Notes under the pieces: model-generated
The model's database searches: none
Told to the model about the DNA's origin: nothing
The model's input: only the letters and a program-made list of their open reading frames with translations
In this document: in pieces, positions 9,292 to 36,009 of the stretch
Layout: each line of letters starts with the position of its first letter
Position numbering within the stretch: position 1 is the first letter of the stretch
Source: Opitutaceae bacterium
Lineage (GTDB): Bacteria; Verrucomicrobiota; Verrucomicrobiia; Opitutales; Opitutaceae
Reading direction: 5' to 3'
DNA length: 45,112 nucleotides
NCBI GenBank assembly: GCA_024711005.1
Contig: JANJTQ010000281.1
Location: 1-45,112 of the forward strand
Position numbers and translations under genes: made by a program

Positions 9292-12200
9292 TCACGGGGT
9301 GATCGTGAGATTGTCGAAGGTGGCCGTACAGAGCTGCGTCGTGTCGCGGCTGGTCACCGCGAGACCGATGAGCGTCGATGAGTTCATCGTAAACTCCTGC
9401 GGGACGTCCACCTGCGTCCAGTTGACTCCGTCCACCGAGGTGTACCCGGTGAACACGTTGCCCACTCGAGTGACCCGCACCCAGTTGTTCGGCGCGGTGT
9501 TCAACGAGCCGCCCGCGTAGGTGGTGTGCCACGCGCCTTGCGTGATTCGTTTCTGCAGACGGAAGCCATTCCCCGGAGTGACCATCATCATCACATAGCG
9601 TGCTCCGGTGGAGGTGCTCTCACGGACCATGACGCCCGCCTTCGCCCATGCGTTGGTGTTCTCCTGCGAGGTCACCCGCACTCGGATGTCGCAGTCACCG
9701 CTGGCGGCCATCCGCGCGAAGTGAAACGAATCCGTGCCGCCGGAAATGTCCGCGCCCGCCGCCTGGATGCTATACAGGCCACCCGAGTGGCTGGTCGTCC
9801 CGGCGAGCCCCACCGAGCCGATGTCACCCGACGTGAGGCTGTAGGTCGGAACGAATACCGGGAACGCGCTGGCCGCGACCTCGGCGTTGGTGATGCGCAC
9901 CTCGTCGATCAAGCCGCGCAATTCATACCGGAACGGGAATCGCGTCGTCGTGCCGGCTCCAAGCTTGTTGGAAACGCTTCCGCTCAGATCGGCGGCCACG
10001 GTGGCCGTGCCGATCTGGTTGGCCGACGAGGCGCCGGCGCCGAGCTTCGTCCAGTAGAGCTTCAGATTCCCCGTGGTCCCGCCCGAACCGTTGTAGGCCA
10101 CCGCCACGTGATACCAGTTGTTGGCCACGAACGCGTGCGTCCCGGTCGTAGGGATCGGCGCGGAGAACGAAGCCGTCCCGTCGTAGAACGACAACGTACC
10201 GGCGTTGACTCGGAAGAGAAAACCCCGCGTGACGTCTCCGTCGTGCGACAGGATATTCTGCTCGCCGGCCGTAGTGCTGATCGAGATCAGCGCCTCGTAG
10301 GTGAACGCGCCGTCGGAGCCCTGCAGCGCGGACTGCGCCACGTTGGACGCGGTGAGCGCGCCACCGCCAATCGACGAGGTTGCGGTGTGGTAGGTGTTGT
10401 CTCCGGAAGCCAGCACGTCGAACGCCGTGCCGTATCCCGAATACCCGGTCGCGCCGTAGCCGCCCGATCCGGTGCCGTCGCGGCCGGCCGCGCCGCCAGT
10501 GTTGGTGAGGTTCAACGCGGTGCCGCCGGAGCCTTGGTTAACGAAGGTACCGGATGCCACGTCGAAGTTGTAGTGCGCCAGCAACGGACCGGACGGCGCC
10601 GTGATCGGGGCCACGGTGACGTTGTCGAAGAGCGCGCGTGACAGAGACCCCGTCACGTTGCTGCTCGACGCCAGGCCCACGTAGACGCTGGACCCCATGG
10701 AGATCGTCGTGGGCGACCCGACTTGCGACCACGTCGTTCCGTTGGACGACTTGAATGCGGTCAACGTGTTGCCGACGCGTTGCAGCCGCACCCAGTTGTT
10801 GGGCGCGGTATAGAGACTCGAACCAGTGGAGACCGCGGCGGCATCCACCGCGGTCCGCGTGCTGAAGCGGAAGCCGTTGGTCGCGGGCGTCGCCGCCATC
10901 AATGCGTAACGCGAGCCCGGCGTCAGATCCTCGCGAACCATCACGCCCGCCTTGGCCATGCCGTTGGTGTTGGTCTGGAAGGTCACACGGGCGGAGATGT
11001 CGAAGTCGCCCGAGATCGACTGCCGCACAAACCGGAAGGCGTCCGCCGTGCCGGCGATGTCGTTGCCCGATCCGTGCACGCTGAACACGCCCGCCGAATG
11101 CATCGCCAGACCTCCGGCCGACACCGCACCGAGGTCGGCGGTCGTCCACGGCGATGGCACGCTGCTGACAGGGGCCGTACGCGTGCCGTTCCAGGCGCGG
11201 ACGTAATCGACTTCAACGGTCTGGTTGTGCACCTGCGAACCCGGAGTATTGCCGTCCCACCCGCCGAGTTGCAGCGAGAGGATGAAATACGCCGGGACGT
11301 TCATCACCCGGGAGCTCACGTATTCGCCGGTCTGCACGCCGTCGATGTAGAAGACCAGCCGGCCCGCCTCCCAATACACGCCGTAGGTGTGGAAGTCCCC
11401 CGCGATCGCAGGGAAGGGAATCTTGCCCCAGCCGGTCGTCTTGTGATCGGTACCATACCCGTCCCAGTGCAGAGTGTGGCTGTTCACGTTGTCGCCCCAG
11501 ATTCCGAGAGTCTCCATCACGTCAATCTCCATGCCGCCGTTGTAGGTGGTCGACGTGTTGCCCCAGTCGTCCTTCACGTCGAGCGTCGCGGCGGAACCGT
11601 GGTTGACTCCCTCATACGACGAGCCCCACCGCACGGAAGAGTCCTCGGTCGCGGTGTAGGCCACGCCGTTGATAATCAGCTGCGGCCGATCCGCCGCGTT
11701 GACCGCCTCCCGACTATGGAAGCTGATCAACTTCGTTCGCATGAACGTGTCCGCCAGGGCGAAACCAATGCGCTTGTCGCCGGCCATCTCTTGCGCGACG
11801 TAGCCCGTGACGTCGAACGTGACCTCTGAGCCGACCGTGTAGGGCTGATTGTAACGCTGGCCCAGCCAGACGGGATCGGGGGTGGGCTTGTTGTTCCAGG
11901 TGATCGTCGACTCGGTCCACGAGTCGTCGGCGACCTTCATGAGCACCACGTTGTTTTCACCGCCGGACTCGAACGACGAAACCTTCAGCTTCAGCGAGGC
12001 GCTGGAGATCGTCCCGGGGTTAACTCCCGTGAGGTCGAATTTCAGGAAGGAACGGCGATACGCGCCCCCCCAACCATAATCGCCGCGATCCGGCATCAGC
12101 CAAAACGCGGGCCAAAGACCCTTTACGGCGGGATACTTTATCCGCGCCTCCATGTAACCGTATTGCTGACGGTAGTTGAAGAAGGTGCTGACCTCGCCGG

Positions 12201-12546
12201 TGGCGTAGCTGAAGGCTTTGCCGCCATACGAGACGGCACGCTGCTCCGACTTCAGTTTCAAGGTGCCGGCCGAGGCCGTGATGTTCCCAGGGGCGTTTCC
12301 GCCGCTCCCGGCGATGCCCACATGGTGCGTTCCCATGCGCCACTTGGTTCCGTCCAGCGTGGTTCCGTTGAACTCGTCCTGAAACGTCAACGTCCAGTTG
12401 CCAGGGACGCCGACCGGAGTCTGCGCGACGCCGCCGGAGGTCAAAGCCATCATTCCAAACAAAGCGGCCGCCATCTTTGGCGATCGGCCACGCGGCAGCG
12501 AACGGACACGACGCCGCGAATCCAATCCAACAGAGGATAGTTTCAT
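9292..12546 (-). CDS. Secreted GH16 glycoside hydrolase with inserted, permuted DNRLRE/CBM96-like module and three C-terminal lectin-like modules
   Basis: Protein of 1084 residues from the ATG at 12546. A signal peptide (MMALTSGGVAQ) ends near residue 42. GH16 starts at WTLTFQDEFNG (51) and runs to about 455; the catalytic motif is EIDVME, with nucleophile Glu340, Asp342 and acid/base Glu345. Between WPAFWLMPDR and GGMEIDVME there is an extra ~170-residue insert (about 161-330) made of DNRLRE/CBM96-like segments in permuted order: FLKFDLTG, TITWNNKP and RPQLIING come before TATEDSSVRWG and LDVKDDWG. Then follow a DUF1349-like sandwich (~470-645), a LamG-like domain (~655-870) and a second DUF1349-like sandwich (~900-1084). 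GH16 enzymes cleave beta-1,3 or beta-1,4 glucans and galactans; given the neighbours agar- or carrageenan-like galactans are plausible. The frame stays open to 12852, but the signal peptide fixes the start. Confidence 0.92.
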   Translation of the reverse strand: MKLSSVGLDSRRRVRSLPRGRSPKMAAALFGMMALTSGGVAQTPVGVPGNWTLTFQDEFNGTTLDGTKWRMGTHHVGIAGSGGNAPGNITASAGTLKLKSEQRAVSYGGKAFSYATGEVSTFFNYRQQYGYMEARIKYPAVKGLWPAFWLMPDRGDYGWGGAYRRSFLKFDLTGVNPGTISSASLKLKVSSFESGGENNVVLMKVADDSWTESTITWNNKPTPDPVWLGQRYNQPYTVGSEVTFDVTGYVAQEMAGDKRIGFALADTFMRTKLISFHSREAVNAADRPQLIINGVAYTATEDSSVRWGSSYEGVNHGSAATLDVKDDWGNTSTTYNGGMEIDVMETLGIWGDNVNSHTLHWDGYGTDHKTTGWGKIPFPAIAGDFHTYGVYWEAGRLVFYIDGVQTGEYVSSRVMNVPAYFILSLQLGGWDGNTPGSQVHNQTVEVDYVRAWNGTRTAPVSSVPSPWTTADLGAVSAGGLAMHSAGVFSVHGSGNDIAGTADAFRFVRQSISGDFDISARVTFQTNTNGMAKAGVMVREDLTPGSRYALMAATPATNGFRFSTRTAVDAAAVSTGSSLYTAPNNWVRLQRVGNTLTAFKSSNGTTWSQVGSPTTISMGSSVYVGLASSSNVTGSLSRALFDNVTVAPITAPSGPLLAHYNFDVASGTFVNQGSGGTALNLTNTGGAAGRDGTGSGGYGATGYSGYGTAFDVLASGDNTYHTATSSIGGGALTASNVAQSALQGSDGAFTYEALISISTTAGEQNILSHDGDVTRGFLFRVNAGTLSFYDGTASFSAPIPTTGTHAFVANNWYHVAVAYNGSGGTTGNLKLYWTKLGAGASSANQIGTATVAADLSGSVSNKLGAGTTTRFPFRYELRGLIDEVRITNAEVAASAFPVFVPTYSLTSGDIGSVGLAGTTSHSGGLYSIQAAGADISGGTDSFHFARMAASGDCDIRVRVTSQENTNAWAKAGVMVRESTSTGARYVMMMVTPGNGFRLQKRITQGAWHTTYAGGSLNTAPNNWVRVTRVGNVFTGYTSVDGVNWTQVDVPQEFTMNSSTLIGLAVTSRDTTQLCTATFDNLTITP
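11557..12066 (-). other. Inserted circularly permuted DNRLRE/CBM96-like module in GH16 copy A
   Basis: Codes for about residues 161-330 of the GH16 protein. In ordinary DNRLRE/CBM96 modules the N-terminal part (AtaDayVr...NyG...LxVk) precedes the RRxYLKFDL segment, and the domain ends in a strand like PQLVVTY. Here the order is RRSFLKFDL, TITWNNKP, RPQLIING, then directly TATEDSSVRWG and LDVKDDWG. The old N- and C-termini are joined and new termini open in the loop before FLKFDL, exactly where the GH16 chain enters and leaves. Confidence 0.75.
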
Positions 12547-12602
12547 TTTGGGGGGTATGGGTTGAGGGGTGAGCCTGCACTCTACCGGAACGCCACCGCG
12601 AC

Positions 12603-12642
12603 GTGTTAGCGTTTCGCTGATCCCAAATATGGCGATTCCTGA
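12603..12642 (-). promoter_or_regulatory. Conserved 40-bp element upstream of GH16 copy A
   Basis: These 40 bases match 15297-15336, upstream of the other GH16 gene, at about 33 positions without gaps. They lie 56 bases before the start codon. Read on the minus strand the conserved core is TCAGGAAT-GCCA-ATTTG, followed by an AGCG-AAA-CGCT palindrome and CTAACAC. The surrounding non-coding sequence is not similar, so the block is probably a promoter or operator. The palindrome with a central A-rich spacer would fit a LacI-type or similar regulator, but this is inference. Confidence 0.6.
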
Positions 12643-12969
12643 CCGGGCGGGTTGATGCGATCCCGAACGCGCCCTCCGTATCCTTGCAATTGATACTACA
12701 TGCCGCTCCTCTTGCGGTTGCCAGGGGACAACGACGCGCGGTCGCATGAACCGGCGGAGTGAAGTCGCCAATGATGCGTTGTCGCGCACAACCAGGCGCC
12801 CCGGCGTATGCTCGACCAAGGTCACGTGCTCCGGCCCCGAATGCCAGGTCACCAGGTCCGGGCCTCACCGCCACCTTGAATCGGAGCCCAGGCGCTCCGA
12901 CCGCACCGACGTCAACGCTGCTCCACGGAGCTGGCAGATCCCGGGCAGCCGCGGTGATCGCCCCATCCG

Positions 12970-13046: not shown

Positions 13047-15257
13047 TCACGGCGTTCCCGCGGGCACCACGCGCACGCCGTCGGCGATCACGTAGCCGTT
13101 GGTTCCCGTCGTGCGGAACTTCACCTCGGCGTTGGCCGGGGAAAGCGGAAACACGCCGAGCAGGGTCCAGGTGTTGCTGTTCTGTTGCTGGTTGACGGTC
13201 ACGGTCACGACCGAGCCGTCCGTTTTGACGATATCGACCGGCACGTTGTTGGCGCGGTTGGCATCGGCCGGCCAGCGCGCATAGACGAGGTGCTCGCCGG
13301 CGGCGGCAATCGCGGGCTTGAAGGAGAACGTCTTGGTGCCCTTGGCGGTGTTGCCGTCGTGCAGGTAGTTCGTCCCAAGATAACCCGGTGTGGAGGATGA
13401 AGCGGTCCAGGTGCCGGTGGCCACGACCGAGGCCGAGTCGGCATTGTCCACGTTGATGATGCCGGAGGTCGGCACGGGCTTGAAGCGCATCGCGTCGGCG
13501 ATCACGTAGCCGTTCGTACCGGTCGTGCGGATGGTCGCCTCCGCGGTAACCACGGCGAGATCATACACGCCGAGGAGGTTCCACTGCCCGCCATTCAACT
13601 GCTGGTTGACGGTCACCGTGGAGACCGGACCGTTGGCGGAGACAATGTCGATGGGCACGTTGGTGGCGCGGTTGGTGTAGGACGTCCAGCGGCCATAGAC
13701 GAGGTATTCTCCGTCCGCCTGCAATGCGGGCAGGTAGGTGAAGGTCTTGGCTCCCTTGGCGGTGTTGCCGTCGTGGGCGTAATTGGAGCCAAGGTAGCCC
13801 GAGTTGGTCGACGAGGTTGCCCAGGTGCCGGTCGTTTCGACATCGGCGCTGTCGGTGTTGTCCACCGTAACCGTGACCGGGGCGGCACGCGTGCCGCTCC
13901 ACGAACGCACCCAGTCCACCTCCATCACTTGGTTGTTCACCTGAGGACCCGGATTGTTGCCGCCCCAGCCGCCCATTTGCAGCGAGAGGAGGAAGTAGGC
14001 CGGCACGCTCATCACGCGCGAATTGGCGTATTCGACGGTCTTGATACCATCGATATAGAAGGCGAGCAGGCCGGGTTCCCAATAGACACCGTAGGTGTGG
14101 AAGCCGTCGGGGGTCGAAGCGTAGTCGATATCTCCCCAGCCGACGGACTTGTGCGAGGTGCCGTAGCCATCCCAGTGGAGAGCGTGCTGGGTGACGTCCG
14201 CACCCCAGATCCCGAGACTCTCCATGATGTCGACTTCCATGCCGCCGTTGAAGGTCGTGGCGGTGTCGCCCCAATCGTCCTTCACCGCGACGTCGACGGC
14301 GTTGCCATAGTTGTTATTCGCCAACGTTCCCCACCTCACCGTGGCGTCCTCGGTCGCAGTGTAAGCGACCCCGTTGATCACGAGTTGCGGGCGATCCGCG
14401 GCGTTGGCCGCCTCACTGCTGTGGAACGCGAGCAGCTTCGTGCGCATGAACGTATCGGCGAGGACGAGGCTGATGACCTTGTCGCCGGACATCTCCTGCG
14501 CGACGTAGCCGGTCACATCGACGGTGATCTCGCTGCCGACGGAAACCTGGTTGTTCCACTTCTGGGCAATCCAGATCGGATTGGGTGTCGGCTTGTTGTT
14601 CCAGGTGATCGTGGACTCGCTCCAGGTGTCGTCGCCGAGCTTCATGGCCACCATGTTGTTGGTACCGCCGGTTTCCATCGACGAGACCTTGAGCTTGAGC
14701 GTGGCGCTGGTGACCGTACCCGGATTCACACCGGTTAAATCAAACTTCAGGTAGGCGCGACGATAAGCGTCCCGCCAGCCATAGCTGGCGCGGTCGGGCA
14801 TGAGCCAGAAGGCCGGCCAGAGACCGGTGACGGCGGGATATTTGATACGCGCTTCGATGTAGCCGTACTGCTGACGATGATTGACGAATGTGCTCACCTC
14901 GCCGGCGGCATAATTGTAGTTCGTGCCGCTGTAGGTGACGGCGCGCTGCTCGCCTTTGATCTTCAACTTGCCATCGGCGACGGTGATGTTCTCCGGCGAG
15001 TTGCCCGCGGAGCCCGCGATGCCGCCGTAGTGTCCGCCGAGACGCCATTTCGTGCCGTCGACCGTGGTGCCGTCGAACTCATCTTGAAACTGCAACGTCC
15101 ATGTACCGGGTACGAACGGTTCAGGGTCAACCGCGTGCAGGGTTCCTCCAAGTGCCAGGGCGCCGATCAGTGCCGCCGTCGTTCGTCGCAGCCGGCACAA
15201 GGGCTGCAAACGGACACGACGTAGCGGTTCTACTCTAACAGGGGGTTTTGTTTTCAT
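13047..15257 (-). CDS. Secreted GH16 glycoside hydrolase with inserted, permuted DNRLRE/CBM96-like module and two golvesin-like C-terminal modules
   Basis: Protein of 736 residues. A basic N-terminus and hydrophobic stretch (ALIGALALGGTLHA) form a signal peptide ending near residue 42. GH16 starts at WTLQFQDEFDG (53); the catalytic motif is EVDIME with Glu341 and Glu346. As in copy A, a ~170-residue insert sits between PAFWLMPDR and GGMEVDIME, with FLKFDL-like (YLKFDLTG), TITWNNKP and RPQLVING before TATEDATVRWG and VAVKDDWG. After the GH16 domain there are two ~130-residue repeats starting VDNTDSADV and VDNADSASV, each with a GYLGxNYxHDGNTAKG motif and ending NGYVIADAxRxxP. These resemble the golvesin/xanthan-lyase C-terminal domain, a probable carbohydrate- or surface-binding module. 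The catalytic parts of copies A and B are close paralogues, but their C-terminal modules are unrelated. Confidence 0.92.
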   Translation of the reverse strand: MKTKPPVRVEPLRRVRLQPLCRLRRTTAALIGALALGGTLHAVDPEPFVPGTWTLQFQDEFDGTTVDGTKWRLGGHYGGIAGSAGNSPENITVADGKLKIKGEQRAVTYSGTNYNYAAGEVSTFVNHRQQYGYIEARIKYPAVTGLWPAFWLMPDRASYGWRDAYRRAYLKFDLTGVNPGTVTSATLKLKVSSMETGGTNNMVAMKLGDDTWSESTITWNNKPTPNPIWIAQKWNNQVSVGSEITVDVTGYVAQEMSGDKVISLVLADTFMRTKLLAFHSSEAANAADRPQLVINGVAYTATEDATVRWGTLANNNYGNAVDVAVKDDWGDTATTFNGGMEVDIMESLGIWGADVTQHALHWDGYGTSHKSVGWGDIDYASTPDGFHTYGVYWEPGLLAFYIDGIKTVEYANSRVMSVPAYFLLSLQMGGWGGNNPGPQVNNQVMEVDWVRSWSGTRAAPVTVTVDNTDSADVETTGTWATSSTNSGYLGSNYAHDGNTAKGAKTFTYLPALQADGEYLVYGRWTSYTNRATNVPIDIVSANGPVSTVTVNQQLNGGQWNLLGVYDLAVVTAEATIRTTGTNGYVIADAMRFKPVPTSGIINVDNADSASVVATGTWTASSSTPGYLGTNYLHDGNTAKGTKTFSFKPAIAAAGEHLVYARWPADANRANNVPVDIVKTDGSVVTVTVNQQQNSNTWTLLGVFPLSPANAEVKFRTTGTNGYVIADGVRVVPAGTP
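14265..14771 (-). other. Inserted circularly permuted DNRLRE/CBM96-like module in GH16 copy B
   Basis: Codes for about residues 163-331 of the GH16 protein. Segment order is the same as in copy A: RRAYLKFDLTG, TITWNNKP, then the C-terminal-type strand RPQLVING followed at once by the N-terminal-type segment TATEDATVRWG, NNYGNAVDV and VKDDWG. Insert boundaries and internal order are identical in both paralogues, so the permutation predates their duplication. Confidence 0.75.
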
Positions 15258-25870: not shown

Positions 25871-28624
25871 TCAGGGTTGATACTCGAAGTAATCGATGCC
25901 GATCCAATGATCCGACGAGGCACTGCTTTTCCAGATGATCTCGGCGTTGAGCGTGTGGGAGCCGTGGTTGAGCCCGGAGTATTCATGGATCTTGAACTGC
26001 GAGACGACGGTCGGCGAGTAGCAGTCCACCGTCGTAACCGGGCCGCCATCGATGGAGAGATTCAGGCGCCCGAGGTTCGGGCCCTTCTTCACGTAGAGGC
26101 TGGTTCCCGTTCCGGTAAACGTGAACTGGACCGATGAACCGATGGTCTTGGATGTCGACTTGGTGGAGTTGTAGAAGATCGGGTCGTTCGTCGCGTGATT
26201 CCACGTGCCCGAATAGGTCACGACGCTGCTCGCCGGGTTGTCGACAATGATCGGGTTTGCCGAAACGGCGCCCACCAACGATTGGAAGAAATCGATGGCG
26301 ACAGCGCTCCCCGTCGAGTCCGGGTCTTTGGTTGCGACGGTCGCGCGCAACGTGTGGCTACCCGAGGAGAGGCCCTGTACTTCGTAGAGCTTAACGAGGT
26401 AGTCGGACGCGGTCGTGTTGTAGCAATTCACGAGCGTCGGAGCGCCTCCATCAATGCTGACGTTCAACTTCCCGAGACTGGACGCTTTCGCCCCGAACAG
26501 CCGGGCGCCGGTCCCCGTGAAGCTGAACTCGACATACGATCCCACGGTGCTGGAGTTCGACCGGGTCTTCGCATAAAAGTTGGCGTCGTTCGTCGGATGA
26601 GTCCACGAACCGCTATAGCTCACGGATGAACCGGCCGGATTATCGACCGTGGTCACCACCGGAGGAACCGGAGGGTTGCCGGGCAATACTTGAAAGTAGT
26701 CGATCCCGATACCGTTGCCGCTGGACGCACCGTTCTTGGTCGTGATCGTTGCCAAGATGGTGTGCGTGCCGGTGGCGAGTCCGCCGATCCGGAAGATTTC
26801 CGCCTTGGTGATGTCCTCGGGCCAATAGCAATCGGCAAGTATGGCCGTCCCCCCGTCGATCTGGATGTTTAGCCGGCCGTTCCCCGTTCCTTTTTTTCCG
26901 TACAGGGCGATATTCGTGCCGGAGAAGGTAAACTGGACGGAGCTCCCGATGGTGGTGGAGGCGGATTTGGTCGAGTTATAGTAGAGGGGATCGGCCGTAT
27001 GTGACCAGCTGCCGCCGTAAGACACCGCTCCCGCCGCGTCGTCGGTGAAGGTAACCGTGCCCGGAGGCGGATTGCTGCCGCCCACCACCTCGTGCATGCC
27101 GATGTCCGCGTAGCCGCCGGCATACAAGGGGTTGTTCCAGAAATCGCGTCCGCCGTTGTTGGCGATCGTCCGACCGTGGTTAATGAGCGGCGACGTGGAC
27201 TGCAGCTTGAACTTGTCGGTGTTGGCGGCGAGGTAGCCATCGGCTCCCGCCCCGGTGGGGACCGGGCCGACAAACTGCGGGTTCGCGACGACCTTGTAGG
27301 GGTCGTTCACGTCGGGCGTGTGACGATGATACGCGTTGTTGGAGAAGGTCGGAAGACTCGGATAAATCGCGGCCGGAACATCGAAGATGTTGTTATAATA
27401 ATAGCTGGCCTGCTTGTCCTTCACTTTGAATCCCTCCTGCAGGTTGGAATAAAACACGTTGTTATACACCAGCACCGAGTTGACCCCGAATACCGGGTTC
27501 AAATTGAACTGGCTGCCGCTGAAGGTGTCCCGGCCGTCGTTCACGCTGAGATTGTAGCGATAGATGATCGTTTTCACCAACGGGTTTTCAGAAGGATCGG
27601 GCATCGTGAGGAGAATGCCGCCCACGTTGTCGTGCGTATAGTTGTACTGGAAAATGTGGGTGCCCAGCGTGCTGATATCCACATCGAAGGCCTGGCTGTC
27701 TCCGCCATTGGTCAGGGCGAGTTCATTGTGCGTGCGAGCGACCTCGTTGAACTGAAAGGTGGCTCCATCGCATTTCCACGTCCACATGCCGGCCATGTAC
27801 CCGTAGCCTTGGCCGTTGATTCCGGCGTCGTATCCCGCGTTGTATTCAACCAGTGGATCCGTCGCTCCGCCGATCACGATGTGGTCGGCCCCGGTGTCAT
27901 AGAACAGGTTGTCTCGGATAACCAGATTGGTGGTCCATAATTCGGGATACAGGGAGTGATAGCTGGCGGGTTTGGTGTAGAGGCCGATACACGTGATATC
28001 GTAGACGTTGTTCCCTTCCACCAGCAGATCATCGAACCCCGCCATGCTTCCGTTGTCCACCGTCACGATGTAGATCGCCGCGTTGTCATAGAGTCCACCG
28101 TTTCGTTGCGAGCGGCCGCGGACATCGTGGATATCGTTTTCGAGAATTCTGATGCCACGACAGATTGAGTTTTGGGCGGTGATCCGAATGCCGTCCCGGA
28201 TGCCGTCCGACGCGGCGTCGTTGGTGATCTCAAAATCGCGAATCGTGATATAAGAGTTGTCCCATAACGCGATCGCCTGGGTGCCGCCTCCTCCGTTGAT
28301 GACGGGTTTCGCACCCGTGCCATAGGCGCCGAAAACAAGTTGGCTGGAGCTGGTGCCGGAGCCTTTCGGAGTAAGGCGTCCGGTCCAAACCGAGCCGCGT
28401 TTAAAGAGCACCTGATCGCCCGGAAGGAAGACGTTTCCGTTCACCTTGGGAATGGTCTGCCAAGGCGCGGAGGTGCTCGTGCCGGTATTCGAGTCCGATC
28501 CTGCGACGGAATCGACGTAGTAGTTGGTCGCCCGCGCCCCGGAGAACGCCAGGGCCATGGCGAAGAGTGACACGAGGCATTTACGACCGCGGGGGAGAGC
28601 TATGCTGAGGGGTAGTGTTTTCAT
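25871..28624 (-). CDS. Secreted right-handed beta-helix protein with three C-terminal jelly-roll-like repeats
   Basis: 917 residues with a signal peptide to about Ala32. NYYVDSVAGSDSNTGTS and PWQTIPKVNG are the usual opening of polysaccharide-lyase-like beta-helix proteins. Repeated turns follow (ITIRDFEITND, RGIRILENDIHDV, DDLLVEGNNVYDI, NLVIRDNLFYDTG), ending near SPLINHG, YADIGMHEV. From about residue 537 there are three repeats of ~125 residues, each with SYxGSWxH, FYNSTKS or similar, GSSVQFTFSGT, GRLNxxIDGG, GTHT and a final IDYF, as in carbohydrate-binding jelly rolls. It could be a lyase or glycosidase of pectate-lyase fold. Catalytic residues cannot be assigned. A C-rich leader precedes the ATG at 28624; an in-frame ATG at 28657 is less likely. 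It lies 59 bases after the sulfatase. Confidence 0.85.
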   Translation of the reverse strand: MKTLPLSIALPRGRKCLVSLFAMALAFSGARATNYYVDSVAGSDSNTGTSTSAPWQTIPKVNGNVFLPGDQVLFKRGSVWTGRLTPKGSGTSSSQLVFGAYGTGAKPVINGGGGTQAIALWDNSYITIRDFEITNDAASDGIRDGIRITAQNSICRGIRILENDIHDVRGRSQRNGGLYDNAAIYIVTVDNGSMAGFDDLLVEGNNVYDITCIGLYTKPASYHSLYPELWTTNLVIRDNLFYDTGADHIVIGGATDPLVEYNAGYDAGINGQGYGYMAGMWTWKCDGATFQFNEVARTHNELALTNGGDSQAFDVDISTLGTHIFQYNYTHDNVGGILLTMPDPSENPLVKTIIYRYNLSVNDGRDTFSGSQFNLNPVFGVNSVLVYNNVFYSNLQEGFKVKDKQASYYYNNIFDVPAAIYPSLPTFSNNAYHRHTPDVNDPYKVVANPQFVGPVPTGAGADGYLAANTDKFKLQSTSPLINHGRTIANNGGRDFWNNPLYAGGYADIGMHEVVGGSNPPPGTVTFTDDAAGAVSYGGSWSHTADPLYYNSTKSASTTIGSSVQFTFSGTNIALYGKKGTGNGRLNIQIDGGTAILADCYWPEDITKAEIFRIGGLATGTHTILATITTKNGASSGNGIGIDYFQVLPGNPPVPPVVTTVDNPAGSSVSYSGSWTHPTNDANFYAKTRSNSSTVGSYVEFSFTGTGARLFGAKASSLGKLNVSIDGGAPTLVNCYNTTASDYLVKLYEVQGLSSGSHTLRATVATKDPDSTGSAVAIDFFQSLVGAVSANPIIVDNPASSVVTYSGTWNHATNDPIFYNSTKSTSKTIGSSVQFTFTGTGTSLYVKKGPNLGRLNLSIDGGPVTTVDCYSPTVVSQFKIHEYSGLNHGSHTLNAEIIWKSSASSDHWIGIDYFEYQP

Positions 28625-28683
28625 GTTTTGGGGTGGGATAACAAAATCAGTCGACACACGGACGTACCGCGCGTGGCTCCGCC

Positions 28684-30126
28684 TCAGCGGAGCAAGCCGC
28701 GATCCTCGCCAAGGATCGTTTCGAGGCGCTCTTTCAGCTCGCGGACCAACGCCGGTTTCTCGTCGTAAAGATTGACGCTTTCGGACGGGTCGGCCTTGAG
28801 ATCGTAGAGCTCACGGACGGGTTCGCCGGTCTTATAGTTGCCTCCCGTAACGAACTTCCACTCCGCCCGACGGAGACCAAACGTGTAGCCCGCGTTCTGC
28901 ACCACCGTTTCCTCGCGAATCGGCTTGCCGTCGTCTTTGCCAAGCCAGGCGGGGAGCATGTTGCAACTGTCCTCGCCGGCGTTCGCGGGCAGTTCCTGAC
29001 CGGTCAGTGCGGCGCAGGCGGCCAACACATCGTTTAGCGCCATGACCTGACCACTGACCGCACCCGCCGGGACGCGACCCGGCCAGCGGACGATGAAGGG
29101 CGTTCTCACGCCTCCCTCCCAAACGGTATGTTTGGTGCCGCGAAGTTTTCCGTTGGGACGATGACCGTCGCCGGTTTCCTCAAAGTGCGAGCCGTTGTCG
29201 CTCGCGAAGATCACCAAGGTCTTCTCCGCGAGGCCGCGGCGTTCGAGCTCGTCAAGAAAGCGGCCGACATAGTGATCGAGCTCGTGAACGTAGTCGCCGT
29301 AGTCGCCCGCGTTGGTCTTGCCGCGAAACCCCTCCTCGACCGCCAGCGGCAGGTGCGGCACATAGGGGGTCATATAAAGAAAGAACGGCTTGTCCTTCGG
29401 TCTCCGGTCCAGATAGGCGATGCTCTTCTCCGTGATCAGCGGCAGGTAGGACGAGACCGGCGTCCGGGACAGCTTGTCCACGCCGGGCGCGGCCGGCGGC
29501 TTGTAGTTCTCGTTGTCGAGCAGGCCGACCGCCCGGTTCCCTTCAAAGATGATCTGCTCGCTGGCGCACACGAACCCATACCACTCGTCAAAACCACGAT
29601 CCAGCGGACCTCCGGTGATCGGCCTCGTCAGATCGATGTTGGCCCCACTGTTTTCGCTTTTGAACTTCCCGAGTCCGACGGGCGGTTCTCCATCCGTGGT
29701 CGTGTAGTTGGCGCCCAGATGCCATTTGCCAAACCCCGCCGTCGTATAGCCGGCCTGCTTGAGGAGCGTCGGCAAAGTCAGTCGCCCCTCCTCGATCATC
29801 GGCGGATGCCAATTCGCCAACACCCCGGCTTTCTTCCACGTCCGCCACGGGTAGCGTCCGGTCAGCAGCGCGTAGCGGGAAGGCGAGCACACCGCCACGG
29901 GACAATAGGCGTCGGTGAAACGAGTTCCTCCCGCGGCGAGCCGGTCGATGTTGGGCGTCGGCACCTTGGATTCGGCGCCGTAACAACCGAGGTCGCCGTA
30001 ACCGAGATCGTCGGCGAGAATCAGCACGATGTTCGGTTGCTCCGACATCGCGGGCATTTCGGCGTGCAACAGCGAGGCTGCAAACAGTCCGGCGACCGGA
30101 GCGAGTCCTGGAAGGAGTGTCTTCAT
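28684..30126 (-). CDS. Secreted sulfatase (type I, formylglycine)
   Basis: Hydrolyses sulfate esters, here probably from a polysaccharide. 480 residues, signal peptide ending at LLHA (22). NIVLILADDLGYGDLGCYG provides metal-binding aspartates. The active-site Cys80 lies in CSPSRYALLTGRYP, the CxPSR motif that is converted to formylglycine. GKWHLG and HLPLAVEEGF are also present. The C-terminal part has LYDLKADPSESVNLYDE, as usual in family S1. The maturation enzyme is not in the window. The frame is open to 30183, but the signal peptide sets the start at 30126. A strong hairpin lies between this gene and the SGNH gene before it. Confidence 0.93.
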   Translation of the reverse strand: MKTLLPGLAPVAGLFAASLLHAEMPAMSEQPNIVLILADDLGYGDLGCYGAESKVPTPNIDRLAAGGTRFTDAYCPVAVCSPSRYALLTGRYPWRTWKKAGVLANWHPPMIEEGRLTLPTLLKQAGYTTAGFGKWHLGANYTTTDGEPPVGLGKFKSENSGANIDLTRPITGGPLDRGFDEWYGFVCASEQIIFEGNRAVGLLDNENYKPPAAPGVDKLSRTPVSSYLPLITEKSIAYLDRRPKDKPFFLYMTPYVPHLPLAVEEGFRGKTNAGDYGDYVHELDHYVGRFLDELERRGLAEKTLVIFASDNGSHFEETGDGHRPNGKLRGTKHTVWEGGVRTPFIVRWPGRVPAGAVSGQVMALNDVLAACAALTGQELPANAGEDSCNMLPAWLGKDDGKPIREETVVQNAGYTFGLRRAEWKFVTGGNYKTGEPVRELYDLKADPSESVNLYDEKPALVRELKERLETILGEDRGLLR

Positions 30127-32080: not shown

Positions 32081-34882
32081 TTAATTGTCGCTGATCAGGG
32101 CCGTGCCCCACACCGATCGGTCGCCGGAGTTTTTAGACGTGCCGTTCCAGACGAATTGCTGGAGCCGGTGGATGCCATTGTCGCTGTTGTTGATCGCAAC
32201 ATCGAAGAGGAGTTCGAGGTCGTGCTTCGGCGTGATCCCGAGGATCGACCAAGGGATCGATACCTGGACGACGTAGCCGTCGCCCGTCACGTCCTTGGTG
32301 ACGATAAACGCACAGGCTTTTTCTTCCTCGGGGTGGTCCGCGATGTGGAGACCCGGAGTCCGGCCGACGCCGATAATGATCTGTCGATCGCTGAACAACA
32401 TCGCGCCCGACTCGCCCAGATTTCTGCCGCCGATGAAGAGCTCCACGCTGTCGCCGCTCCAGTAGGATCGGGGCGCCTTCTCGTTCATGAACGGCGTCGC
32501 GTCGGCGACCTGGATGAGGAAGTGGAGATTCCGCTCGTCCCAGCAAAGGCGGAAATCGCCGCGCAAATCGGGATTCGGGTTACCCTGCACAAGGCTCGCC
32601 GCGCCGATCGGTTCGGCGGGCCGGGTGGGCCAGTTTGTCGTGAGTCCATCAAGCGCGATCTCCGCCTGCGCCCGCGGAACAGACACGGTTTTCCGGCCGC
32701 CCTTCCCTCCCTTTCCGGTGAAGCGAGGATCGTCGAAGACGAAGGGTTTCACCCGGCCGAGAATCACGTCGTAGACGCGGTCGTTGCTTTGTTTCGCCGC
32801 GGCGACCAGGGCCGGATACGGGCGGTCGGTCACGTCGACCAGGCCCGTGTTGTTGCCTTCGCCGTTGAAGCCTTGAAAAAAGCGTCCGGTGATCGACTGG
32901 TCCGTGTAGATGAACCACTGGGTGCCGACGACAAAGGGAAGCGCCGCCGCCTGCTCCGTGTAGTTGCGATAGGCCGCGGCGCGTTCGTCCTGGTTGCGCA
33001 CCTTGCCGCCGCTCAACCCCTGCTCCATCGAGCTGTAATACCATTCGCTGAGAATGATCGGCTTGCCGCCGCTCCATTCGTGAATTCGCCGAAGGAAATC
33101 GGCGTCGATCCCGTAGGTGTAGTAGTTGACGCTGACCACGTCCACGTGACGTCCGCCCACGGCGACGATCCCCTCGTTGGTCGCGGTGTTCGGGGTCCAG
33201 CGGGAACCGATGAGCAGATGATTCGGATCGTTCCGGCGGAAGACGCGGCGGACCATCGCGTAATAGGTTTCCAAATACAGATTGGCGAACGCCTTCATGT
33301 CGGCCGCGCCCTCGTCGGTGCGAACGAACAGGACGGCCTCCTTCAACTCGTCGAAACCGCCGAAGGGCGTCGCGGGTTTCCACGCCTGGTTGAACCGGGC
33401 GATGTCGCGATATTTTTCCCGCAGTTCTTCAACCAGCCGGGCCTTGGCCGCGACCTTGCTCGCCTTGTAGGCGGGAATGAGCCGGGGCAGGAGTTCGAGA
33501 TGCTGTTCGTTGCCGAGGAAATAGCCGATGAGAAGAGGATCGTCGGCGCGGGAGGCCACGCCGGCGAAGGCGCGGTCGAGCGCTTCCTCGACGCCGGGCG
33601 CGAAGGGATCGAAGAGTTTGTCGGCGCCGAGCTTGTCGGGGAGCAACGCAAGCCCCTTCGCCTTGAGCGGCAGCATCCCGACATACGGAAAGCTCCGCGT
33701 CCGCATGGACTCCGAATAACGCGTGAACGCCCCGGCGCTGTTGAAACCCCACGCGCGCAGGCGATCGACCACCTGGCCCGACCACTCCTCGTAGTCGAAA
33801 GGACGGTCGAATTTGCGAATCCAGTTCGCGATGTAGAACGAGAAAATTCCGGAGCCGGGGTTCCCGTCACGCCACGCGGTCGCATACTTCTCGTCCTTCC
33901 GCGCCGGCAGCCATTCGTAGATGTTCTCCCGGCCCTTCACCAAGGTGAAGTCGTCGGTGTTCGCGATTCCGCACACGCCGAGTTGGAAAAACAGGTTGCC
34001 CTCCGGCGTGACCAGCACCTGCCGGCCCCCGTCGATTTCTTCGACGTGGAAGAACCCGTTCTTCTTCAGTCCAAGCTTCTCCCCGCTTCCGGCCAGGCCG
34101 CCAAACCCGTCCTTGGCCGGCCCGCCATCCGTGGCGAGCGAAGCCTGGTGGACGAGCCCGTCCCGCCTCAGTTCGTCCTCGGTCTTCACCTTGCCCGGAT
34201 ACTCCTTGCGGGCGGACTGGCCGAAGCGGTCCACGAGAAACTTCGGCGAGGGCGTGGAATCGCCCGCCAGCGCCGCGGCCGGGGCCGCGTCCACGCTCAT
34301 GGTGATGGTCTTGGCGGACCGCTTCTTGAGCCGGTGAAAGTAGGCCCACGAAAAACTCTTCGTTCCCCAGGTCCGGTTGTCCTGCAACTGATAGAGGCCC
34401 TTGGGCGTGTGGAAGACGAGGCGTTCGCCCAGCGGGTGAATTAACGTGATTTGCCCGGCGTTGCCTTCGCCGATGATCTGCTTGGAGAACACCTCGGGAA
34501 ACGCGCCCGGCTCGTCGTCGCCGATGACGAACCGCCCCCCCTGGGTGAGCATGATCGGCAAGGTGGTGCTGAACTTCAGGCTGACGACGTCGTCCGGCAG
34601 ATGGTCGAAGCGATAGACGAGATCCTTGCCCGTGCCGGACACGGCGATCTTCAGCACAAAGCCGTTGGAGTACCTGGCGACGGCGCCGCCATCTTCCTCG
34701 CGCTCATAGACCGCCTTCAGCGATTTTTTATTGGCGAGCGAGACGGTGGGCGGCGTAAGCGTCAAACGCCCGAACGCGCTCCCGTTGATCACCGCGCCTT
34801 TATCGCCGATCTCCAGCCTGAGATTCTGCCCCGAAAGCGTGGTGGCGCACAAAAAAACGAGAAAAAGAATACGTGTGAACAT
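32081..34882 (-). CDS. Secreted GH50-like (agarase-type) glycoside hydrolase with C-terminal CBM9-like domain
   Basis: Protein of 933 residues from the ATG at 34882, with signal peptide MFTRILFLVFLCATTLSGQ. The N-terminal ~220 residues are beta-rich. DRFGQSARKEYPGKVKTEDE is the linker typical of GH50 agarases and precedes the (beta/alpha)8 domain. In that domain the acid/base is Glu459 (GYFLGNEQH) and the nucleophile Glu613 (IILSEWYY). About residues 750-933 are a CBM9-like domain (FRLCWDERNLHFLIQVADATP, YWSGDSVELFIGG). GH50 enzymes cut agar-type galactans; this one may have a related substrate. The frame extends to 35308, antisense to the repressor's C-terminus in another frame, and is not used. 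LacI-type repressor gene 101 bases upstream. Confidence 0.88.
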   Translation of the reverse strand: MFTRILFLVFLCATTLSGQNLRLEIGDKGAVINGSAFGRLTLTPPTVSLANKKSLKAVYEREEDGGAVARYSNGFVLKIAVSGTGKDLVYRFDHLPDDVVSLKFSTTLPIMLTQGGRFVIGDDEPGAFPEVFSKQIIGEGNAGQITLIHPLGERLVFHTPKGLYQLQDNRTWGTKSFSWAYFHRLKKRSAKTITMSVDAAPAAALAGDSTPSPKFLVDRFGQSARKEYPGKVKTEDELRRDGLVHQASLATDGGPAKDGFGGLAGSGEKLGLKKNGFFHVEEIDGGRQVLVTPEGNLFFQLGVCGIANTDDFTLVKGRENIYEWLPARKDEKYATAWRDGNPGSGIFSFYIANWIRKFDRPFDYEEWSGQVVDRLRAWGFNSAGAFTRYSESMRTRSFPYVGMLPLKAKGLALLPDKLGADKLFDPFAPGVEEALDRAFAGVASRADDPLLIGYFLGNEQHLELLPRLIPAYKASKVAAKARLVEELREKYRDIARFNQAWKPATPFGGFDELKEAVLFVRTDEGAADMKAFANLYLETYYAMVRRVFRRNDPNHLLIGSRWTPNTATNEGIVAVGGRHVDVVSVNYYTYGIDADFLRRIHEWSGGKPIILSEWYYSSMEQGLSGGKVRNQDERAAAYRNYTEQAAALPFVVGTQWFIYTDQSITGRFFQGFNGEGNNTGLVDVTDRPYPALVAAAKQSNDRVYDVILGRVKPFVFDDPRFTGKGGKGGRKTVSVPRAQAEIALDGLTTNWPTRPAEPIGAASLVQGNPNPDLRGDFRLCWDERNLHFLIQVADATPFMNEKAPRSYWSGDSVELFIGGRNLGESGAMLFSDRQIIIGVGRTPGLHIADHPEEEKACAFIVTKDVTGDGYVVQVSIPWSILGITPKHDLELLFDVAINNSDNGIHRLQQFVWNGTSKNSGDRSVWGTALISDN

Positions 34883-34983
34883 GAGGCGGAGACCGGGGGT
34901 AAATCGTGAAGCTGAAAAGCCAAAATCACATCCCCGTCGCCTCCGCCAGAAGCGCAGCGGTTTACAGATGACCTGCGCCGTCT

Positions 34984-36009
34984 CTACCCGGATTGCGCCT
35001 TCAACGTGCGACCGTCGCACCACACTCCCTCGATGTTCACGATCTTCGGGTGGGCGGGCAGGCCGAGCTCGTTGTTTTGCAATTGCTCGACCACAAGATC
35101 CACGGTCTTGGCCCCGACCTCGCCGCGCAGCAGGTCGACACCGGCGCAGGTGTCGATCGAGGGCAGGCAGTCGAGACTCGCGAACCCGATGTCCGCCGGG
35201 ACACGGAGGCCGATTTCGCCGAGCAGGTCGAGCACCGTATGCATGTTGCTCACAACCGCCTGGATTTTGTGGCGCTCGATCCACTCCGCGAGCTTCGCCC
35301 TGTCCCATTCGGCCGTGAGGAGCGGAGGAATGACTTCCTGCGGCCTCACCCGAAATTGATATCCCATGTAGGCGGACAACGCGGTGTTGTTGTTCATGTC
35401 GTCCTGCTCGATCAAGGTCACATAGCCGACACGGGCGTAACCGAGGCGCTTGAGATTACGCAAGGTCAGGACCATCGCGTGAAAGAACCCGTGGGCCGCA
35501 TGGTGCAGACCCGGCTTGAGGATGGTATGCCCCACCGCCGCGACCGCAAAATGTTTCCAGTTCAGCGACACGCGCCCCCGGGCGTGCAGCATCGACATGA
35601 AGATGAGTCCACGAATGGAGCGCGCGTGCAGAATGCGACTCAGACGGGAAAGTGTCATTCGGGGTTCCCGCGCCCAGAACTCCTCGATCTCGTAACCGAG
35701 CTGATGGGCACGCGCGCAAATACCGTCATGCAGCGCAATGCCGCGAGGATTGTGACGCGCCCCGGGTGTGTCCCACCAAGTGAGCATGGCAAGTTTCTCG
35801 ACAGTGCGGGCCTTTCGCGAGGAACGCAGTTGTGTCATCAGCGTGGATACCAGCGGATCGCGCGTGTAGCCGGCCTTGCGGGCGATCGCGAGAATCCTGT
35901 CTCGCGTGACGGGGGATATGCGCGGGTGGTTGCGCAATGCCAGCGACACGGTGGTCTGCGAACATTTGGCGAGCGCGGCGAGTTCGCGCATGGTCGGGGT
36001 CGGGCTCAT
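34984..36009 (-). CDS. LacI-family transcriptional regulator
   Basis: Protein of 341 residues. The N-terminal helix-turn-helix (about 6-26) reads TMRELAALAKCSQTTVSLAL, followed by the hinge RNHPRISPVTRDRILAIARKAGY. The rest is a periplasmic-binding-protein-like effector domain (WYDTPG-like WWDTPGARHN, DIGFASLDCLPSIDTCAGV, LVVEQLQNNELGLP). It most likely senses a sugar released from the polysaccharide and controls the GH50-sulfatase group downstream and perhaps the divergent SGNH gene. The ATG at 36009 has GAAGG twelve bases upstream; the frame is open to 36129 but starts without conserved residues. Confidence 0.92.
   Translation of the reverse strand: MSPTPTMRELAALAKCSQTTVSLALRNHPRISPVTRDRILAIARKAGYTRDPLVSTLMTQLRSSRKARTVEKLAMLTWWDTPGARHNPRGIALHDGICARAHQLGYEIEEFWAREPRMTLSRLSRILHARSIRGLIFMSMLHARGRVSLNWKHFAVAAVGHTILKPGLHHAAHGFFHAMVLTLRNLKRLGYARVGYVTLIEQDDMNNNTALSAYMGYQFRVRPQEVIPPLLTAEWDRAKLAEWIERHKIQAVVSNMHTVLDLLGEIGLRVPADIGFASLDCLPSIDTCAGVDLLRGEVGAKTVDLVVEQLQNNELGLPAHPKIVNIEGVWCDGRTLKAQSG

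Follow-up and report, generated by a model that had tools for sequence, protein, structure and literature searches.

In the window, that is the whole stretch of 45,112 nucleotides that was analysed, two neighbouring paralogous genes on the minus strand (copies A and B; Table 1) encode GH16 enzymes whose catalytic domain is split by a circularly permuted CBM96/DNRLRE domain, an architecture that leaves hardly any room for doubt. In copy A, the C-terminal part of the module comes first and the N-terminal part second, and rotation of the segment restores a contiguous profile match. A sequence-only reading had already proposed this arrangement for copy A, and the range that it gave for the module (11557-12066) falls within the insert at 11539-12084. 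Copy B and one cross-phylum clade of GH16 proteins, which follow the same permuted order, are additional to that reading, and so is a second permutant in GH74 proteins.

Copies A and B are 70% identical across the 410-residue catalytic region. Judging from their hydrophobic N-termini, both proteins are probably secreted, and the true start of copy A probably lies inside the ORF, ahead of a hydrophobic stretch resembling a signal peptide. The C-terminal modules of the two proteins differ, with two DUF1349 stretches in copy A and two Golvesin_C stretches in copy B. Carbohydrate-related genes are also found elsewhere in the window, coding for large CBM9-like and CE2 N-terminal-like proteins.

Table 1. 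Positions of the two split GH16 genes, of their parts and of other carbohydrate-related genes in the window
Feature	Position	Strand	Content or basis
Copy A gene	9292..12852	-	1186-aa ORF (P0001): GH16 split by permuted CBM96, then two DUF1349 stretches
Copy A GH16 catalytic domain, first half, up to WPAFWLMPDR	12085..12405	-	within GH16 match 11173-12405
Copy A insert, 182 residues	11539..12084	-	between WPAFWLMPDR and GGMEIDVME
Copy A CBM96 C-terminal four fifths, profile 35-163, first in order	11668..12072	-	six-frame genome scan, E 2.5e-26
Copy A CBM96 N-terminal part, profile 4-41, second in order	11548..11661	-	weak alone, E 0.046; supported by rotation and shuffle tests
Copy A NGVAY hairpin joining old last and old first strands	11653..11667	-	rotation test; junction comparison
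Copy A GH16 second half, starting GGM	11173..11538	-	Pfam match; homology match
Copy A catalytic motif EIDVME (ExDxxE)	11512..11529	-	sequence; alignment columns
Copy B gene, 736 aa	13047..15257	-	GH16 split by permuted CBM96, then two Golvesin_C stretches
Copy B GH16 first half	14790..15110	-	homology match
Copy B insert, 181 residues	14247..14789	-	between WPAFWLMPDR and GGMEVDIME; homologue comparison
Copy B CBM96 profile 35-163, first in order	14373..14777	-	six-frame genome scan
Copy B CBM96 profile 4-37, second in order	14265..14366	-	six-frame genome scan, E 2.4e-4
Copy B GH16 second half	13881..14246	-	Pfam match; homology match
Copy B catalytic motif EVDIME (ExDxxE)	14220..14237	-	sequence GGMEVDIME; alignment columns
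Large protein with CE2 N-terminal-like domain	25874..28810	-	
Large protein with CBM9-like domain	32084..35455	-	

Sequence Evidence for the Permuted Order

The Pfam CBM96 profile matches both proteins in two stretches each, scoring 101.8 bits in copy A and 97.8 bits in copy B (cut-off 26), and the NCBIfam CBM96/DNRLRE profile scores 84.5 and 81.3 bits, respectively (cut-off 34). A third GH16 copy of the same genome (G000:C336) shows CBM96 profile positions 38-163 first and 4-36 second. When the segment is rotated, the two Pfam stretches merge into a single contiguous match and the score rises from 108.6 to 111 bits in copy A and from 112.1 to 116.1 bits in copy B; the NCBIfam score on rotation, for copy A only, passes from 89.5 to 92.3 bits.

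The permutation was further analysed with a local CBM96 profile made of 31 full-length canonical domains, scoring every possible rotation point of each insert. These domains were picked for matching a canonical seed over the full length, and are thus canonical by construction and no proof of the usual order. The test set consisted of 24 GH16 inserts (class I), namely the two of the window and 22 from 21 other loci, trimmed of host-loop residues. Rotation restored a full-span CBM96 match in all 24, with a gain of 14.6-41.0 bits, and the best rotation point coincided in every case with the R/W-P-x-L-x-x|N/D junction. By comparison, shuffling of the displaced piece (1200 draws) gave a mean gain of 2.64 bits and a maximum of 12.0, below the real minimum of 14.5. 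Without trimming, a full-span match was obtained for just 3 of the 24 class I inserts and for 6 of 8 inserts of a second class described below, the low number in class I being due to leftover host residues that behave as an insertion. Of the 31 canonical domains, 12 were rotated as well, and the native order was never beaten.

That the usual order is the reverse of the one found here, as the sequence-only reading had stated, is borne out by the Pfam and NCBIfam profiles and by the solved structure 8wab; on this comparison with the family, the order of the insert is not the normal one. Specifically, a profile of the inserts in their native order matches 8wab in two significant, out-of-order pieces, with positions 140-173 aligned to chain residues 15-48 and positions 10-141 to residues 53-186. 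Against 7vbo the large piece is significant, and the displaced piece aligns at the predicted position with 5.7 bits, a score that is not significant alone. In other words, six-frame scan, rotation and comparison with 8wab all place the strands of the insert outside the canonical CBM96 order, and since the strand order is permuted the insert is described as a permuted derivative of CBM96/DNRLRE.

Predicted Structure of the Insert and of Its Host

AlphaFold returned a confident two-domain model for GH16 together with its insert (mean pLDDT 94.4, pTM 0.91), and a model of the insert alone with pLDDT 88.6 and pTM 0.86. In the models, the insert has the beta-sandwich fold of CBM96/DNRLRE and the host part has the beta-jelly-roll catalytic fold of GH16. 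In particular, the closest structures to the insert-alone model are 8wab (Z 15.2, 135 aligned residues, 1.9 A, with residues 6-143 onto 47-186) and 7vbo (Z 13.0, 133 aligned residues, 2.2 A, with residues 6-141 onto 30-179), followed by matches with Z of 9.1 or lower. The ends that remain unaligned are C-terminal in the insert model and N-terminal in the two crystal structures, and this placement on opposite termini fits the prediction of a permutation. The predicted structure hence agrees with the earlier expectation that the insert folds as one CBM96-like sandwich. The GH16 part of the model aligns either side of the insert with the laminarinase 2vy0_B (Z 27.5, rmsd 2.6, 235 residues).

An apparent inversion of the two pieces could also arise with no permutation at all, if they were what is left of two CBM96 domains side by side, the leading one having lost its start and the trailing one its end. 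Such a pair would be expected as an intermediate in evolution, and CBM96 domains do occur in tandem. In the copies scanned, however, the two pieces sum to one profile, broken near position 35 and overlapping little, the rotation optimum is identical in all 24 inserts, and AlphaFold closes both pieces into a single sandwich, all of which makes two remnants a very improbable explanation and leaves a circularly permuted single domain as the preferred one.

The Insertion Site in GH16

The Pfam GH16 profile detects the host domain in two stretches in each protein (59.3 bits in copy A and 61.2 bits in copy B; cut-off 22). The insertion point lies three residues ahead of the first catalytic glutamate of the ExDxxE motif, whose E, D and E residues are kept in all 24 inserted and all 29 un-inserted rows of the alignment. 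At the same site, close un-inserted GH16 paralogues read WPAFWLMPDRGAASGLNxWQRRxTxxGAMEIDIME. WPA and ExDxxE are 24-29 residues apart when the insert is missing (ten copies) and 194-210 apart when it is present (ten copies), in a comparison of genus copies recognised by a motif rule that misses some GH16 copies (e.g., L046 and L051), and from which the GH16 of L055 was dropped.

The junctions between host and guest are well conserved, with DRGxYG on one side and ST(Y/F)NGGM on the other. With respect to the canonical module, the sandwich is opened in the loop between the second strand (LxVKxD) and the third strand (RxxYLKFD), and it is closed by a two-residue turn between the old last and the old first strands, which is NG or DG in 22 of the 24 inserts, NA in one and NS in one. 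The new ends of the domain sit in one loop, as had been supposed, and are connected to the host loop that precedes the catalytic strand.

Distribution and Probable Single Origin of the GH16 Arrangement

A scan of species genomes yielded 76 loci, of which 21 carry the insert (22 copies) and 55 do not, among the best 80 of 354 candidates. At least 22 further inserted copies were found which, by their record titles, belong to five phyla: the Verrucomicrobiota and Planctomycetota, where the sequence-only reading had suggested looking for other permuted copies, and in addition the Kiritimatiellota, Bacteroidota and Myxococcota. Metagenome bins account for many of these copies, and others are from the isolates Hyalangium versicolor, Cerasicoccus frondis, C. 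maritimus and C. arenae. Full-length copies are present in 4 of 56 relatives, each belonging to the same genus, and in an even sample of the phylum a full-length match to the GH16 permutant occurs in 7 of 387 genomes, with counts per genome that may be low because scoring was limited, in most genomes, to the best 7 first-look candidates. The GH16 arrangement is rare and widely scattered. In viral contigs, none of the 14 loci classifiable by the motif rule, out of 19, carries the insert, the other 5 being unclassifiable by that rule.

These occurrences bear on the question of whether the architecture could reflect a chance resemblance or an assembly artefact, considering that the assembly is fragmented (351 contigs) and that the displaced piece of copy A is weak on its own. 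The shuffle control described above speaks against it, and the same architecture in the four named isolates refutes it for practical purposes, so that the probability left to this explanation is negligible.

In a tree of the host domain, built with the insert left out from 24 inserted and 29 chosen un-inserted rows, the inserted copies form one branch (99/99, recovered in 98% of 200 bootstraps). As all the inserted copies examined fall on this branch, the most economical account is a single insertion that was later inherited and transferred; that is, the GH16 arrangement probably arose once and then spread.

A Second Permutant in GH74-Type Proteins

Twelve CBM96 places were counted in the genome of the window, six of which are permuted: three belong to class I and three to a second class. 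In class II, CBM96 copies inside GH74 proteins are cut elsewhere, with about profile positions 100-163 first and then about 1-105. The cut follows the TWNNRP strand, and the domain is inserted in the C-terminal propeller of GH74-type beta-propeller proteins. Class II loci were found in the window's genome (L049, L169 and L170), in the same genus (L035, L168, L206 and L207) and in other families of the phylum (L208 and L238); in one of the three copies of the window's genome (C184), the six-frame scan misses the weak first piece, which was detected solely by the local profile. L049 aligns with the GH74 structure 6p2m (E 5e-56), and the alignment is broken at 483|484, which is the insert site. 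All eight class II copies examined have their first recognisable CBM96 residues 22-23 residues past the Asp of the S-DGG-W motif of GH74, an Asp that we take to be catalytic. Rotation after trimming regained the full-span profile in 7 of 8 copies, the exception being L208, and full-length class II matches occur in 4 of the 387 genomes of the phylum sample, where the counts per genome may again be low.

Among the matches listed, no clear further permutation class was seen in 10 stretches (one of which is a known GH74) and in L224. Two side observations concern other CBM96 sequences. In L211 (G137:C66), a canonical-order CBM96 at residues 680-1049 of a 1293-aa ORF is interrupted from profile position 103 to 111 by ~230 additional residues, close to where the GH74 permutant is cut. 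In L205 (G224:C198:1016-1306) and in G224:C199:191-553, the CBM96 matches contain one and two in-frame TGA codons, respectively, which may reflect decayed genes, sequence errors or recoding.

A Possible Origin from Tandem Arrays

In a tree of the binding domains, class I and class II each form one branch (100/95 each). The sister of class II, with support of 94/95 (below the starred support level), is a tandem pair of canonical CBM96 domains at the C-terminus of an un-inserted GH74 of the same genus (L226:2652-5909, minus strand), separated by a linker of 6 residues. The linkers of compact tandem CBM96 arrays measure 6-14 residues (5 junctions), with a looser one of 100, and the permuted junctions measure 4-7 residues (13 examined). 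A tandem canonical sister together with short junctions is what one would expect if the register had shifted within a tandem array. No tandem-array sister of the GH16 permutant was found in the same tree; the GH16 insert would nonetheless represent a CBM96 unit lifted in shifted register from a tandem repeat array. By extension, permutation and insertion might constitute a repeatable route to a longer substrate cleft, in which units of tandem CBM96 arrays are placed, register-shifted, beside the catalytic residues of unrelated glycosidases (GH16 or GH74), each cut point making the groove of the module continue that cleft. We put forward this generalization tentatively, as a possibility that is still somewhat doubtful.

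Ligand Residues and Proposed Function

The founding member of CBM96 is TM6-N4 of the alginate lyase Dp0100 (PDB 7VBO; PMC9971899), and 8WAB is described as a chondroitin-sulfate-binding module. In TM6-N4, according to PMC9971899, Lys25, Lys27, Lys31 and Arg36 influence alginate binding, with R36E abolishing it, and the loop equivalent to the cut carries ligand residues, with Lys27 before, Lys31 within and Arg36 after. Mapping of TM6-N4 numbering onto the inserts, through the alignment of the native-insert profile, places the class I cut after Lys27 and before Arg36, in the loop forming the wall of the glycan groove. The Lys27 position is K or R in 17 of the 24 inserts; the Arg36 position is Arg in 12, and in 20 inserts either this position or the one following it is basic. 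The positions of Lys10 and Lys22 hold lysine in none of the 24, that of Lys25 is K in four and R in one, and that of Tyr159 is Y in one. The alginate-contact residues of TM6-N4 are hence mostly missing from the inserts, an observation that bears on alginate binding and not on family membership. As the known alginate site is largely lost, with the positions of Lys10, Lys22, Lys25 and Tyr159 not conserved, alginate is an unlikely ligand and glycan binding by the insert is only putative.

The enzyme is predicted to be an active, secreted endo-beta-glycanase. Since in TM6-N4 ligand residues stand on either side of the cut loop, and here its ends are grafted next to the catalytic glutamates, the groove of the module is expected beside the catalytic cleft. 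Cut in the groove-lining loop, and with both ends joined to the GH16 loop entering the catalytic strand, the CBM96 module would lengthen that cleft. In such a mechanism, it would add glycan subsites that keep the chain in place at the active site, and would not be a tethered anchor. We consider this cleft extension more likely than not. The insert might also change substrate grip or processivity, as the sequence-only reading had suggested.

A different role can be envisaged for the same permuted fold, namely that of a buttress or lid that does not bind glycans, shapes the wall of the cleft and either narrows specificity or stabilises the enzyme. The non-conservation of the majority of alginate-contact positions, the conserved junctions between host and guest and a relative domain placement that looks rigid (pTM 0.91) are in line with it. 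The characterised CBM96 members, however, bind glycans (PMC9971899; 8wab), and a basic residue persists at the Lys27 position in most inserts. On these grounds, a purely structural role is unlikely, albeit to be taken seriously, and extension of the cleft by added subsites is the reading that we prefer.

Relation to Known Systems and Significance

The customary picture of binding modules is that of beads on a string. In the titles and abstract openings of the open-licence literature, no description was found of a permuted CBM96 or of a CBM inserted in GH16, and in the founding CBM96 paper (PMC9971899) neither the stem 'permut' nor GH16 occurs. The insert belongs to the same sequence family as the CBM96 modules 7VBO and 8WAB (Pfam PF24517, NCBIfam NF033679) and has their fold; these modules have the ordinary strand order and stand outside catalytic domains, whereas the inserts described here are permuted and lack most alginate contacts. 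GH16 laminarinase-type beta-glucanases (2vy0, 6xqh, 4crq and others) have the catalytic fold and the ExDxxE motif in common with copies A and B; the structures aligned lack the insert, because the model range spans it and yet only 200-235 residues are aligned. Insertion as such has parallels among carbohydrate-active enzymes: CE20 esterases likewise host an ancillary domain inside the catalytic domain (PMC12313940, in which no mention of permutation was found), and sialidases have inserted domains as well (PMC4747158). A circularly permuted binding module is also known from engineered RoCBM21, for which permutation is reported to have improved binding (PMC3511584), but this is a laboratory construct of another family and apparently not inserted in an enzyme. 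In the genome of the window itself, L051 (G000:C179:14500-19000, minus strand) combines GH16 and CBM96 too, but its CBM96 is canonical and C-terminal.

For genome annotation, the arrangement is a warning, in that domain tables report a split GH16 and an apparently truncated CBM96. Moreover, it is a case of circular permutation in which the probable relatives among tandem repeats survive. Within one genus, CBM96 occurs in canonical form at the C-terminus of both GH16 and GH74 enzymes and in permuted form inside both enzyme kinds, thus offering natural matched sets for testing the effects of permutation and insertion on substrate grip.
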